Source of the DNA: Pusillimonas caeni
Lineage (GTDB): Bacteria > Pseudomonadota > Gammaproteobacteria > Burkholderiales > Burkholderiaceae_B
Reading direction: 5' to 3'
Length of the DNA: 64,000 nt
Assembly (NCBI RefSeq): GCF_003545815.1
Contig: NZ_PDUW01000003.1
Span: 124,001-188,000 of the forward strand
Under the pieces are notes generated by a model, which was given only the letters and a program-made list of their open reading frames with translations, was not told where the DNA came from and searched no databases. A program made the position numbers and the translations under genes. Shown piece after piece: positions 54,780-59,835 of the stretch (position 1 is its first letter; each line of letters opens with the position of its first letter).

Positions 54780-55555
54780 GCCTGCTCGAAGTCAGAAACC
54801 TTTCCAAGAAGTTCGGCGGCAACGTCGCCGTGGACGATATCAGCTTCGACCTTCACGAAGGCGAGCTGCTTGCCCTGATAGGCCCCAACGGCGCGGGCAA
54901 GACCACCACCTTCAATATGGTCAACGGCCAGTTGAACGCCACGGCGGGTTCGGTGCGTCTGCAAGACACCGAGCTGATCGGCCTGGCGCCGCGCAAGATC
55001 GCGCATATGGGCGTGGGCCGCACTTTCCAGATCGCCGCGACCTTCGCCTCGCTGACCGTGGTCGAAAACGTGCAAATGGCGCTGCTGTCGCATCACCGCA
55101 AGGTGTATTCCTTTCTCAGCGTGGCGGCCGATCAGTACCGCGACGAGGCCCTGGGCTTGCTCGGGCAGGTCGGCATGGAGACCCAGGCCGACCGCCCCTG
55201 CAGCGAACTGGCCTATGGCGACGTCAAGCGGGTCGAGCTGGCCATGGGCCTGGCCAACAACCCCAAGCTGCTGCTTATGGACGAGCCCACCGCCGGCATG
55301 GCGCCCAAAGAGCGCAACGAGCTCATGGCGCTGACCAAGAAGCTGGTGGTCGAACGCAACATGGCCGTGCTGTTCACCGAGCACAGCATGGACGTGGTGT
55401 TCGCCTACGCCGACCGCATGATCGTCCTGGCCCGGGGCAAGCTCATCGCCGAAGGCAACGCCGACCATATCCGCAACCATCCCAAGGTGCAGGAAGTCTA
55501 CTTCGGCACCGGCAAGACATTCGAAAAGAACCAGAACGCGCAGGCAACGACATGA
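54776..55555 (+). CDS. livG: LivG-type ABC ATPase
   Basis: 259 residues. Walker A GPNGAGKTT (about 37), Q loop, the LAYGDVKRVELAMGL signature-like region and Walker B LLLMDEPTAGMAPKE. First of two ATPases; overlaps livF by four bases. Confidence 0.95.
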   Translation: MSLLEVRNLSKKFGGNVAVDDISFDLHEGELLALIGPNGAGKTTTFNMVNGQLNATAGSVRLQDTELIGLAPRKIAHMGVGRTFQIAATFASLTVVENVQMALLSHHRKVYSFLSVAADQYRDEALGLLGQVGMETQADRPCSELAYGDVKRVELAMGLANNPKLLLMDEPTAGMAPKERNELMALTKKLVVERNMAVLFTEHSMDVVFAYADRMIVLARGKLIAEGNADHIRNHPKVQEVYFGTGKTFEKNQNAQATT

Positions 55556-56301
55556 ACCAGACAGCCACCGACACCGGCCAGCCCTTGCTCGAGGTATCCG
55601 GCCTGAACGCCTGGTACGGCGCCGCTCACATCCTCTTCGACGTCAGCCTGAACGTGAAGCGGGGCGAAGTGGTGGCGCTGATGGGCCGCAACGGCGCCGG
55701 CAAGTCGACGACGTTCAAGTCCATCATGGGCCTGATGGCCAAGTGGAAGGGCGAAGTCACCTTCATGGGCAAGCGCATTACCGGCCAGCAGCCGTACGAG
55801 ATAGCGCGCGCGGGCCTGGGCTTCGTGCCCGAAGACCGCCGCGTCTTCACCGACCTGACGGTCACTGAGAACCTCGAGGTGGGCCGCCAGCCGGCGCGCA
55901 AATGGCCGGACGGCTCCGCGGCGCCAACCTGGACTCCCGAGGCTTTGTACCAGCTGTTTCCCAACCTGGGCGCCATGCAGGACCGCCCCGGCGGCCACAT
56001 GAGCGGCGGCGAACAGCAGATGCTGACCGTGGCCCGCACGCTCATGGGCAACCCTTTCCTGGTGCTGCTGGACGAACCCTCCGAAGGCGTGGCGCCGGTC
56101 ATCGTCGAGCAGATGGCCAATATGATCATCGCGCTGAAAGAGCAGGGCGTCAGCATCCTGCTGTCCGAGCAGAACGTGCACTTCGCCGAACTGGTGTCCG
56201 ATCGGGTCTATGTACTCGAGAAGGGTCAGATACGCTATAGCGGATCGATGGACGAGCTTGCCGCGAACGAGGAAGTGCGTCGGGCTTATTTGACGGTGTA
56301 G
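55552..56301 (+). CDS. livF: LivF-type ABC ATPase
   Basis: 249 residues. Walker A GRNGAGKST (about 46), signature HMSGGEQQML (about 150), Walker B LVLLDEPSEGVAPVI (about 170) and switch region LLSEQNVHFAE. Completes the importer. The operon ends before two large intergenic palindromes. Confidence 0.95.
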   Translation: MNQTATDTGQPLLEVSGLNAWYGAAHILFDVSLNVKRGEVVALMGRNGAGKSTTFKSIMGLMAKWKGEVTFMGKRITGQQPYEIARAGLGFVPEDRRVFTDLTVTENLEVGRQPARKWPDGSAAPTWTPEALYQLFPNLGAMQDRPGGHMSGGEQQMLTVARTLMGNPFLVLLDEPSEGVAPVIVEQMANMIIALKEQGVSILLSEQNVHFAELVSDRVYVLEKGQIRYSGSMDELAANEEVRRAYLTV

Positions 56302-56434
56302 GGGCAGCTGACACGCGTGGGTGTTTCCTACTGCGTTTTTTCGGCTAAGTTTTCTCGTAGGGATGTCGGAGCCCGAAATGGCGGCGTCTTGAGCCTCTCT
56401 GACGATTTCATCTTTCTTATGACCGGGGCGGGGC

Positions 56435-56629
56435 GGTGTACGGGGTAACGGGCCGCACCATGCGGTCCCGCTACGCGGCACTCCCCGAATTTTTCTGTTC
56501 CGGCCGGGCGGCGGGAGAACTCGACCTCGCCGCTGCGCGGCTCGGGACTCAGACAGGCTCTCGCCGACTGCCCCCCGTCCGAAACAGAAAAATTCGGCGC
56601 ATGCTGAACGGCCCGTTACCCCGTACACC
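56435..56629. repeat. Large imperfect palindrome 1
   Basis: Two perfectly complementary 21-base arms (56435-56455 and 56609-56629; left arm begins GGTGTACGGGGTAACGGG) enclose a second pair of perfect 15-base arms, CCGAATTTTTCTGTT (56485-56499) and its complement (56583-56597). The centre is only partly symmetric. Both strands would translate to similar peptides (YGVTGR, RNRKIR, GPLPRTPP), confirming the symmetry. No ORF here is credible. Confidence 0.85.
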
Positions 56630-56682
56630 ACCCCACCCCTACCGATGGGGTGTAATGAGCCGCCCAATACACGAGACTGTGA

Positions 56683-56899
56683 GCCTGGCCGGGTAGCACT
56701 ACCTAAAATGTGCGTTCGGCATGCGCCGGGTGCTGACGAAGGGAAGGCGGGGGCAGTCGGTGAAAACTGTTTGAATCCCGAGGAGCGTAGCGACGAGGTT
56801 GAGTTTTTTCACCGCCCGCCTGGACGAGGCAGACCCGGGAAGTCCGGCGAAGCCGGACCGCATGACGCGCACATTTTAGGTAGTGCTACCCGGCCAGGC
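56683..56899. repeat. Large imperfect palindrome 2
   Basis: Exact 32-base arms (56683-56714 and 56868-56899) contain GGCCGGGTAGCACTACCTAA and its complement. The 153-base interior has further partial pairing (GGTGAAAAACT-like with AGTTTTTTCACC, CCGGCGAAGCCGG). It lies 54 bases from palindrome 1 and 38 bases before the stop of the leftward cytochrome gene; it may end transcription from both sides. Confidence 0.88.
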
Positions 56900-56937
56900 G
56901 GGTTAAAGATTCAATACGGCCATCAAATCAGCAACCG

Positions 56938-59835
56938 TCAGCCCTCCGCCCCTTCTCGCAGCGAGCGAATCTTCTCCGGCAGACCTTCCCAGGCCGGTTT
57001 GTCCGGCGCAAACCGCATCCGCAGATACTCGAGCAGCGTTTCCAGCTGCTCGTCGTTCATGCTGTCGCCGAAGCCCGGCATATAGCCCAGCTCCGCCATG
57101 GCCGGATTGTCGATGCCGTGCAGCAGGATCTGGATGGCGTTGTCCGGACTGTCGCTGTGCAGATTGGTGTTCAGCGCCAGCGAGGGCCGGGCGCCGAACA
57201 GCGGCGGGCCTTCGCGCGCATCGTGGCAGACCGCGCAGGCGCCCTGGAACAGGTTTTCACCCGCCAGCGACAGCACCCTTTGATCGTTGCGGCTCTGCTC
57301 TTCCAGATGGGCCGCCTGCAGCGCCGGGCTGACTCCGGCAGACGGCGCGGGCGCCAGAGTGCCCAGGTAGTGGGCAATGGCGCGCACATCCTGGTCGGGC
57401 AGCTCGGCCATGCTTTGTATGACGGGCGCCATCGGGCCCGACGCCACGCCATGCAAAGACGAGTAGCCCGTGCGCAGATAGCCGTACAGCTCCTCCTCGG
57501 TCCAGGGAATGGGCGCCTTTGAAAGCGCATTCAATGCCGGAGCCTCCCAGCCCTCGGCAAAGCCGCCCGCCAGGAAATTCTGCTCGCCCGACTTCTCGGC
57601 CCCCAGCGCATTGCGCGGAGAATGGCAGGCCGCGCAGTGGCCCATGCCCTGCACCAGGTAGGCGCCGCGATTCCACAGCGCGGTTTGCGATGGATCGGGC
57701 TGATAGGTTTCGTTCTTGTGAAAGAGCAGATTCCATCCCGCCAGCAGCGGCCGCATGCTGTACGGAAAAGACAATTGCGTCGGCTCGACCCGGTTCGTCA
57801 CGGGCTCCTGCGTCATCAGGTAGGCGTACAGCGACTGCATGTCCGCGTCCGACATCTTTGCAAATGCCGTGTACGGAAAGGCCGGATACAGGTGGCGGCC
57901 GTCGCGGTGTATGCCCTCGCGCATGGCGCGCTCGAAGGCGGCGTACGACCATGCGCCTATGCCCGTCTCTTTATCGGGCGTGATGTTGGTGGTGTAGATC
58001 TTTCCGAATGGCGTTTCCAGCGCCAAGCCGCCCGCGTTGGGCACGCCGCCCTCGGCGGTGTGGCAGACCATGCAGTCGCCGGCCGCCGCGACGAGGCGGC
58101 CGCGCTCGATCGCCGCCGCCGAATAGATGGAGGTGTCGATGTTTGCCACCGGCGCGACGGCGGGCCTCCAGGGCATGGCCGCGACCAGCAGGCTGCCGGC
58201 CGCCGCGGCCATGCCGCCCAATAGACCGTAAGCCGCCTTCCTGGAGCGGCCGCCACTCCCGGCAAGCGACAATTGCCGCTTGAGTTCGCCGGCGTCGAAG
58301 GGCGGCTGGCGAAGGCGTATGCCGGTGGCATCGTGAATGGCGTTGGCGATGGCCGCCGCCGCGGGCAGTTCAGCGTCGCGGCTCCAGGCCAGCCCCACGG
58401 GGCCCTGTTCGACGAGCTGCACCTGGGTGGCGGAGCGGGCAAGCGGAAAATCGGTTTCCGGAGAGGCGCCCCAACTATCGTGGCTCGAGGCATCCCGCAG
58501 CCAGCGCGTCGCGGCCTTGCGCACGTCTTCTTCGATGCGCGGCGCAGGTGAAGCCTGCAAGGCGCCGGTATTGTGGCCGACGGTCAGTCCTGTGAGATCG
58601 ATGGCGCCCGTGGCGGGGTCTACGCGGATGTCGGCCACCCAGGCGGACCACACTTCCTGGGGCGGCTGCCGGGTCTGATCGATGACATGGGCATAGGCGA
58701 AGCCCCGGCCCTCGTAGGAATGCTTGCGGCGGGCCTGCGACCATTTTGCGCGCGTCGCCACCGAAGCAATCAGCTCGCGGCCCGTCGCATCGTCGATCGC
58801 GTCGAGCCGGGCCTGGACCGGATCGTGGCCGCGCAATGCACAGGCTTCGTCGAAGAAGGATTCTTGCGCGAATACCTGTGCGGCGGCGGGCAGGCCCAGC
58901 ATGCCCGCCTGCGGGCGAGCATCGCTCGAGGCCGGCAGGTGGCGCGCCTGTGGGGCGCAGTCGGCCATGCACACGACATGCTCGGGCCGATGCTGGATTT
59001 CAAAGCCGCACAGCAGGGCCGCGATCGAAGGGCGGCGGCCCGGATGCAGATCGGAGGAAACGATGAGCTCGCTTACTGGCAGAGGCGAGCCGCTGCCGCC
59101 GGCGGAGTCCCGCGATGCGCCGGCCGGGGCGGGCGTTCCCGACACACTGACGCTTATGGGCTGCGCATTCAACGCATCCGGATCTTGCTGCACCCGTACT
59201 GGCCGCCCGCAGGAGCGGGAAAGCAGGGCGGCGTCCGCAGCGACGTCGTAGCCTTCGGTATCGATCTGGCCGTTCGCGATGATGCGCACCGCCTCTTGCG
59301 GCAGTCCGCACAATTGGGACAGCTCGCGGCGCAGCGCATCGCTGTGGCGGGTGCAGGTCCACACGACCAGGGCGTCGCCGGAATACTGGGCGATGGCCCA
59401 CGCCGGAGCCTGTTGCTGCGGGGCGGGCCAGAAGTAGGTTCGAGAAAGCCCGCCTTCGCTTTGCGATGGCGCAGCGGTTTCCCGGCCCGTGGCCGAACCC
59501 GCGGTGTCGGCGGCCGAAATTCCCGGCGCCGTGACCGGCACCGCCCAGCCCGGCTGAAGCCGTGTCCGGGCTTGCCGCGCTTGCCCGGGCTGCGAGGCGA
59601 TGATGCCGATAAAATCCTGGCGCACCACGACGTCGACCACGCCCGGCGTGCCGCGGGCCGCTTCGGCGTCGAGATGGCTGAGGCGGGCGCCTGTATAGTT
59701 CGAGCCGTCCCAGGCGATGTCCGTCGGACGCAGGGTGACGGCATGCAGCAGTTCGCCCGCGGAGGGCGGAGCGATGCTGGAGGAGCCGGCATGGGAGGGC
59801 GCGCCCTGCGCGGGCCTGTGCACCGGGGCCGTCAT
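56938..59835 (-). CDS. Membrane-anchored triheme cytochrome c with degenerate molybdopterin domain (NicB-like)
   Basis: 965 residues. About 20-515 resembles the xanthine-dehydrogenase molybdopterin fold but is eroded: where active enzymes have a GxGE motif followed by AIANAI, here it reads SRDAELPAAAAIANAI, so the catalytic Glu context is lost. A membrane helix follows (about 540-560, AYGLLGGMAAAAGSLLVAAM), then three heme sites: GDCMVCH (about 587), GHCAACH (about 732) and GACAVCH (about 865). The C-terminal half passes electrons to the respiratory chain, as in NicB and IorB-like dehydrogenases. Overlaps nicA by four bases. Confidence 0.85.
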   Translation of the reverse strand: MTAPVHRPAQGAPSHAGSSSIAPPSAGELLHAVTLRPTDIAWDGSNYTGARLSHLDAEAARGTPGVVDVVVRQDFIGIIASQPGQARQARTRLQPGWAVPVTAPGISAADTAGSATGRETAAPSQSEGGLSRTYFWPAPQQQAPAWAIAQYSGDALVVWTCTRHSDALRRELSQLCGLPQEAVRIIANGQIDTEGYDVAADAALLSRSCGRPVRVQQDPDALNAQPISVSVSGTPAPAGASRDSAGGSGSPLPVSELIVSSDLHPGRRPSIAALLCGFEIQHRPEHVVCMADCAPQARHLPASSDARPQAGMLGLPAAAQVFAQESFFDEACALRGHDPVQARLDAIDDATGRELIASVATRAKWSQARRKHSYEGRGFAYAHVIDQTRQPPQEVWSAWVADIRVDPATGAIDLTGLTVGHNTGALQASPAPRIEEDVRKAATRWLRDASSHDSWGASPETDFPLARSATQVQLVEQGPVGLAWSRDAELPAAAAIANAIHDATGIRLRQPPFDAGELKRQLSLAGSGGRSRKAAYGLLGGMAAAAGSLLVAAMPWRPAVAPVANIDTSIYSAAAIERGRLVAAAGDCMVCHTAEGGVPNAGGLALETPFGKIYTTNITPDKETGIGAWSYAAFERAMREGIHRDGRHLYPAFPYTAFAKMSDADMQSLYAYLMTQEPVTNRVEPTQLSFPYSMRPLLAGWNLLFHKNETYQPDPSQTALWNRGAYLVQGMGHCAACHSPRNALGAEKSGEQNFLAGGFAEGWEAPALNALSKAPIPWTEEELYGYLRTGYSSLHGVASGPMAPVIQSMAELPDQDVRAIAHYLGTLAPAPSAGVSPALQAAHLEEQSRNDQRVLSLAGENLFQGACAVCHDAREGPPLFGARPSLALNTNLHSDSPDNAIQILLHGIDNPAMAELGYMPGFGDSMNDEQLETLLEYLRMRFAPDKPAWEGLPEKIRSLREGAEG

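Follow-up and report, generated by a model that had tools for sequence, protein, structure and literature searches.

The question raised by this locus is what a long nested palindrome lying between two genes of Pusillimonas caeni represents, and whether it stands alone or belongs to a family. The window is the whole stretch of 64,000 nucleotides in which the palindrome lies. An initial annotation described perfect arms of 21 bp and 15 bp able to form a cruciform or an RNA hairpin, and proposed that it belongs to a mobile or gene-converted repeat family and is not an ordinary terminator.

The palindrome at the window locus

The arms are present as annotated, and both perfect pairs proved to be embedded in longer ones. 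The 21-bp arms (56435-56455/56609-56629) are the inner part of an outer pair of 31 nt (56425-56455/56609-56639) that is 94% complementary, and the 15-bp arms (56485-56499/56583-56597) sit within a 35-nt pair with 83% complementarity. The proposed hairpin potential was borne out, with the RNA fold of positions 56400-56660 reaching -148.4 kcal/mol against a shuffle mean of -103.05 (sd 5.33; z = -8.51) and none of 200 shuffles folding as well. A second nested palindrome, with perfect 32-bp arms at 56683-56714/56868-56899, is a relative of the first in the opposite orientation; the covariance model R1 scored 70.7 bits at 56498-56574 on the minus strand and 67.2 bits at 56750-56825 on the plus strand. 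The palindrome under study, hereafter element A, is one half of an inverted pair with this second palindrome, element B. The features of the locus are listed below, the strand given for each element being its inferred functional strand.

55552..56301, plus strand: left neighbour, ABC transporter ATP-binding protein (best model UrtE at 241 bits, under its cut-off of 285.8; LivF-like second)
56407..56917, no strand assigned: composite unit of two nested hairpin elements in inverted order, their tails pointing outward; it takes up most of the space between convergent genes (outer tail limits approximate)
56407..56424, no strand assigned: outer tail of element A, a degenerate TTTCTTATGACC here and GRGTTCTTNARC in other copies
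56425..56639, minus strand: element A, the palindrome under study, with outer arms 56425-56455/56609-56639 (arm search, fold, model R1)
56468..56478, minus strand: side hairpin of element A, of small size, with the plus-strand sequence CCGC-TAC-GCGG and the minus-strand loop C-GTA-G (sequence and fold)
56478..56604, minus strand: inner stem of element A, arms 56478-56512/56570-56604, including the perfect 15-bp part
56498..56574, minus strand: conserved core of element A (model R1)
56683..56899, plus strand: element B, with the perfect 32-bp outer arms
56750..56825, plus strand: conserved core of element B (model R1)
56900..56917, no strand assigned: outer tail of element B, GGGTTAAAGATTCAATAC (reverse complement TTGAATCTTTAACCC), a degenerate match to the tail motif
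56938..59835, minus strand: right neighbour, convergent, encoding a protein of 965 aa; molybdopterin oxidoreductase and cytochrome c models match it weakly, every score lying far under cut-off

The locus was compared with known signals and collections. A terminator-like scan gave no match inside the element and a single match at 56317-56331, which precedes it, at a chance expectation of 1.0; no GC stem followed by a T run, the criterion of an intrinsic terminator, was found at the element. No sigma-70-like promoter was found in 56250-57000 by a scan covering this one promoter type. At E<=1, Rfam returned nothing for the element except two chance-level miRNA matches far below the gathering score, and at the gathering score it returned none at the elements of 20 further loci, where the only matches were unrelated ones to tRNA, cspA and group II introns. 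The interval 56407-56917 had no match in the plasmid and phage collections. As for the similar peptides noted initially on both strands, overlapping ORFs do exist on both; they are expected of any palindrome and are not evidence of a gene, and protein coding over the palindrome was rejected as these ORFs are explained by its symmetry.

A dispersed family with a common plan

When a 261-bp query spanning the palindrome was searched in the P. caeni genome, it gave 12 matches. One is the query itself, two are its arms matched on the opposite strand, and nine lie elsewhere; two of the nine (at the start of contig C19 and the end of C20) have long identical stretches in common and may be one locus. 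Across 41 genomes, comprising relatives and P. caeni itself, the query matched in six. Besides the 12 in its own genome there were 20 matches in G002 and three in G001, congeners whose inferred identities are Pusillimonas noertemannii DSM 10065 and a Pusillimonas MAG, seven in G019, inferred to be an Alcaligenaceae MAG, and one weak match each in G033 and G037. The sequence is multi-copy, in keeping with the repeat family proposed initially and not with a single-copy sequence lacking conservation. Together the copies make up a family of nested hairpins, each ~200 bp long, that is scattered through genomes of the Pusillimonas group, and we found no description of it in the literature searched, subscription papers lying outside the scope of that search.

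The 36 copies that were folded have a common plan among the folds listed: an outer stem, a side hairpin, an inner stem and a core with the consensus AACTC..ACCTC-hairpin-TCGG..TC..ACA, in a full element of 202-231 bp. Outer arms occur in 35 of the 36 copies, the exception being truncated by a contig end; they measure 28-38 bp with 0-3 mismatches each, amounting to 22 mismatches in 1087 pairs. A left arm is on average 0.980 identical to its own right arm, against 0.445 to the right arms of other copies; for a 19-nt sample of the core, the identity between copies is 0.814. It is thus the arms that differ most from copy to copy, at a mean pairwise identity of 0.445, and the sampled core that differs least, which reverses the initial picture of perfect arms inside a diverged centre. 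Many copies carry the tail GRGTTCTTNARC to the left of the stem, and in some of them (L240, L059, L042) this left tail is tandemly repeated with a spacing of ~40 bp. A tail pattern matched 17 places in three of four genomes (control 1). A pseudoknot or guide pairing of the tail GAGTTCTT with the core segment AAGAACTC was considered and dropped, because the mini elements described next have the tail without a core and because tails, as judged by eye, do not track core subtype.

A mini form of ~115 bp keeps the outer stem and the tail and has only a short loop with no core. It matches 51 places in the P. caeni genome, a set obtained from 63 rows by dropping 12 (11 reverse-strand echoes of listed elements and one part of a full element), and the 51 still include at least one stem that belongs to a full element, at C1:47238. 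Within 400 bp of each other lie 20 neighbouring mini pairs, 19 of them in one order with tails outward; the pair formed by elements A and B has the same order, and full pairs have tails outward in three of four cases.

The covariance model detected 11 core-bearing copies in the P. caeni genome. In an even sample of 398 Pseudomonadota genomes, searched with strict filters and with 12 candidates scored per genome, it matched four including P. caeni (11, 5, 4 and 2 matches). The three other genomes have a shorter core: the core regular expression matched none of their 11 loci, and the architecture was recognised by eye in the seven that were listed. A short-core pattern occurred at 20 places in 10 of the 398 genomes (control 3), with none in P. 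caeni, and several of the single matches look like chance. The core pattern itself was found in at least 113 stretches of named genomes, of which 80 were listed with titles; among the taxa listed are Thauera, Herbaspirillum, Methylibium, Pseudohongiella and delta-proteobacterial and Patescibacteria MAGs, names that may be wrong since many of these entries are MAGs. Most of the cases listed have paired arms of their own. The distribution of the family across Pseudomonadota is patchy.

In one genome, G257, four relatives (L302, L306, L310 and L313) have the shorter core CTGTCTGAGCCC-GAA-GGGCGAGTT with variable perfect arms on their flanks, and an inverted repeat of the AAAGAAAG type adjoins three of these four listed relatives.

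Compensated changes and strand-specific mismatches

One orthologous copy (L037/L055) is kept at the same place in two species whose flanks are 86-87% identical. Among its 88 stem pairs, six were changed on both sides, five of which still pair, and four on one side; the six double changes compare with 0.73 expected by chance, and none of the 32 unpaired positions was changed. At this one locus, the changes read from the sequence argue for selection on the structure in place, and the in-place conservation of the pair suggests selection at the site, not only selfish spread.

The mismatches that remain in the stems are strongly biased between strands. Read on the AACTC strand, the 32 copies of the Pusillimonas group (1609 pairs) hold 29 A.C and 7 G.T mismatches (p = 3e-4); 88 other copies, including another Alcaligenaceae (2769 pairs), hold 79 and 17 (p = 1e-10); and 26 mini elements (831 pairs) hold 17 and 0 (p = 1.5e-5). 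The first two counts left out cores without a stem. On the strand opposite AACTC..ACA, the same mismatches read as G.T or G.U wobbles. The three sets agree in direction, and the p-values overstate the case because the copies are related and the counts are not independent.

Further features mark the same strand. Of 137 apical loops read on the wobble-bearing strand, 68 have the form C(GNA)G, 10 have the form C(GNNA)G and none has the opposite-strand form; loops were not included in the search pattern. Across 37 diverse copies, the core structure pairs in 80.2% of cells, compared with 55.6% in shuffles, and one core pair covaries without exception (21 G-C, 16 A-U). By inspection, two adjacent GA steps stand opposite each other on the wobble-bearing strand, which in non-Pusillimonas copies is not independent evidence because the search pattern fixes these letters. 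In single-stranded DNA, loops of the C(GNA)G type and GA pairs in tandem have an unusually high stability. With mismatches and loops both strand-specific, selection for the structure probably acts on one of the strands in its folded, single-stranded form. The family offers a large natural set of hairpins whose stems have been rewritten many times with pairing retained, and a strand-specific wobble signature that indicates which strand folds.

Placement, mobility and interpretation

Among 31 classed cores, 22 lie in convergent gaps, 9 in codirectional gaps and none in divergent gaps, a preference for convergent gaps when set against background gaps of at least 50 bp (68 convergent, 134 codirectional and 88 divergent), with all classes resting on crude ORF calls. 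This count used 32 cores found by regular expression, 31 of them in a gap; the expression missed some cores, as model R1 later gave 35 strong matches in the same 33 regions. A separate count placed 24 copies in convergent and 10 in codirectional gaps, out of 34 with two neighbours. Codirectional copies run five along the gene direction and five against it, which gives no suggestion of read-through RNA. The orientation of the elements to replication, tallied by hand, showed no clear bias (16 vs 10); a bias of 11 vs 3 in one subtype was set aside, the subtype having been chosen afterwards.

The C23 site of P. caeni (L040) holds two elements, and the corresponding gap measures ~76 bp in G002, that of G001 ~52 bp. 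Occupation in P. caeni and empty sites in two congeners amount to an insertion polymorphism and point to mobility; together with the dispersed copies and the terminator scan above, this supports the mobile repeat family proposed initially over an ordinary terminator. At the window locus, the flanks are conserved in G002, but the gap there contains a single element of another subtype. No target-site duplication was seen in the single pair recognised by script nor in about eight pairs inspected by eye, the ends of the elements being uncertain. A 3.2-kb segment of G002 (L047 2205-5411, compared with G000 C16:570880-574093) is inverted in the P. caeni genome; in G002 elements flank it on both sides, at L047 1940-2154 and 5454-5929, and in P. 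caeni no elements occur at either junction. This inversion fits recombination between inverted elements, whichever way the change ran.

A mobilising enzyme was sought in the genomes that carry the family. The PF01797 domain (RAYT/Y1 tyrosine transposase) was absent from all four genomes searched, three of them drafts and one a 90% complete MAG-like assembly, and the control matched 5 of 14. PF04986 (IS91 type) was found in none of seven genomes, but its control likewise matched nowhere, so no conclusion follows. No transposase-like neighbour stood out in the 15 largest clusters of neighbouring genes, the largest of which consisted of false ORFs of the elements themselves.

The closest parallels are the REP, REPIN and BIME sequences of the GTAG and CGTC superfamilies. 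Those are multi-copy extragenic hairpins with a one-sided unpaired tail, frequent inverted dimers and strand-specific reading as single-stranded hairpins (PMC3733652, PMC3116915, PMC8266576); here the 20 mini pairs, 19 in one order, and the window pair match the dimers, and the wobble bias and loops bear only indirectly on the strand-specific reading. REPs are likewise described as forming dimers and lying mainly between unidirectional and convergent genes (PMC3733652), as in the 22/9/0 distribution above, where divergent gaps are avoided, and TnpA-REP as recognising hairpins strand-specifically (PMC8266576). In contrast, the elements here measure 115-231 bp instead of 20-40, most copies carry a GRGTTCTTNARC-like tail in place of GTAG or CGTC, their arms are hypervariable between copies, and the RAYT domain is absent from the four genomes. 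CGTC-type REPs are also without a dedicated transposase according to PMC3733652, and differ in size, tag, nested architecture and conserved core. Since unit size, tag and RAYT domain do not agree, we file the family as working like REP/REPIN and not as a member. Bacterial MITEs and stem-loop repeat families such as NEMIS, ERIC, YPAL and Bordetella Bor-1 are similarly short, palindromic, intergenic and multi-copy. Table 3 of PMC2267715 gives six Bordetella stem-loop families, from the same bacterial family as Pusillimonas. MITEs have terminal inverted repeats conserved for the transposase, unlike the arms here. Integron attC sites also keep structure as sequence varies and act through the bottom strand as single-stranded DNA (PMC8266576); in contrast to integrons, no cassette arrays were seen.

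The reading that we favour with moderate confidence takes element A and its inverted partner to be non-autonomous mobile elements of a REP/REPIN-like kind, a folded single strand being the form in which they would be recognised. Each half, ~200 bp long, is a nested hairpin whose outer and inner stems vary, with a small side hairpin between the stems and a core that is conserved; the folded strand is more likely to be DNA exposed in replication or transposition than RNA. The recognising enzyme would read shape, loops and tails and not the sequence of the arms, which may then drift provided they stay paired, and insertions would survive mainly between convergent genes, where no promoter is disturbed. 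On this best reading, the family would be an apparently new form of REP-like non-autonomous elements, set apart by its tag, size, hypervariable arms and nested core. A broader version can be advanced only tentatively: the core, in which GA steps pair beneath a C(GNA)G loop, might be a single-strand recognition structure shared across several phyla by undescribed, shape-reading mobile elements, with arms free as long as they pair and a reader that is not RAYT. Against the favoured reading stand the lack of a family-linked transposase in the genomes and neighbour clusters searched, the degenerate tails of the window's own elements, the ortholog pair conserved in place and the fact that RNA would account for the G.T/G.U bias as well.

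That last point leads to a structured RNA, in which the same strand would be transcribed and folded to act as a 3'-end stabiliser, a processing site or a small RNA, mobility being secondary. The G.U-type tolerance on one strand, the stable fold, the core with its covariation, the position at 3' ends of genes and the unpaired bases conserved in place all agree with this explanation. We consider it rather doubtful, given that codirectional copies split evenly along and against the genes, that the scan of 56250-57000 for one promoter type found none, that Rfam gave only chance-level miRNA matches here and nothing at the elements of the 20 further loci, and that wobbles are a small share of pairs (29/1609, 79/2769 and 17/831). 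The strand bias also bears on a rival close to the idea in the initial annotation, namely that arm-to-arm gene conversion or template switching keeps DNA palindromes perfect with no single-strand function. Near-perfect arms that differ among copies would follow from such a process, as would the double-sided changes in the orthologous copy, yet repair is symmetric for both strands, and neither the mismatch ratios of 29:7, 79:17 and 17:0 nor a loop rule that holds on one strand only (78/137 vs 0) is symmetric. Gene conversion alone fails to predict this bias and is improbable. Selection between convergent genes for a long bidirectional terminator is the least credible explanation, with very little probability left to it: the convergent placement, a short hairpin at the empty site in G001 and a hairpin with a T run at a G000 junction, both seen by eye, speak in its favour, but no T-run terminator was found at the element, 9 of 31 cores are codirectional, related cores occur in distant taxa, and a 200-bp nested structure with conserved core and side hairpin far exceeds what termination needs.

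The large set of rewritten hairpins, with its strand signature, makes it possible to test how a folded single strand is recognised and spreads in bacteria seemingly without the known REP transposase.

Other repeats adjoin the mini elements at contig ends. At the end of L344 and the start of L348, a repeat end beginning TGTCGTGGTC.., which we take to be of IS3 type from its appearance, abuts the loop of one of the mini elements and has no plasmid match. A different sequence of ~223 bp, about 98-100% identical between copies, lies at five P. caeni contig ends (L343, L345, L346, L347 and L351), and there adjoins the tail of a mini hairpin (GCTNAAGAA, then TCTATGG). Its likeness to plasmid sequence is 69-71%, and in two annotated matches the gene immediately upstream encodes an IS110 family transposase. 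By sequence likeness, the repeat is probably an IS110-type element that targets the tails, as reported for REPs, which are targets of IS elements (PMC1525189). With elements at the ends of the inverted segment and next to these IS110-like end copies, the family may mark hot spots of genome change. The start of C19 and the end of C20 (L349/L350) have two identical 127-bp blocks in common but differ by a mini element lying between the blocks; this may reflect either alternative assemblies of the region or sequence lost by deletion between the elements of a pair.
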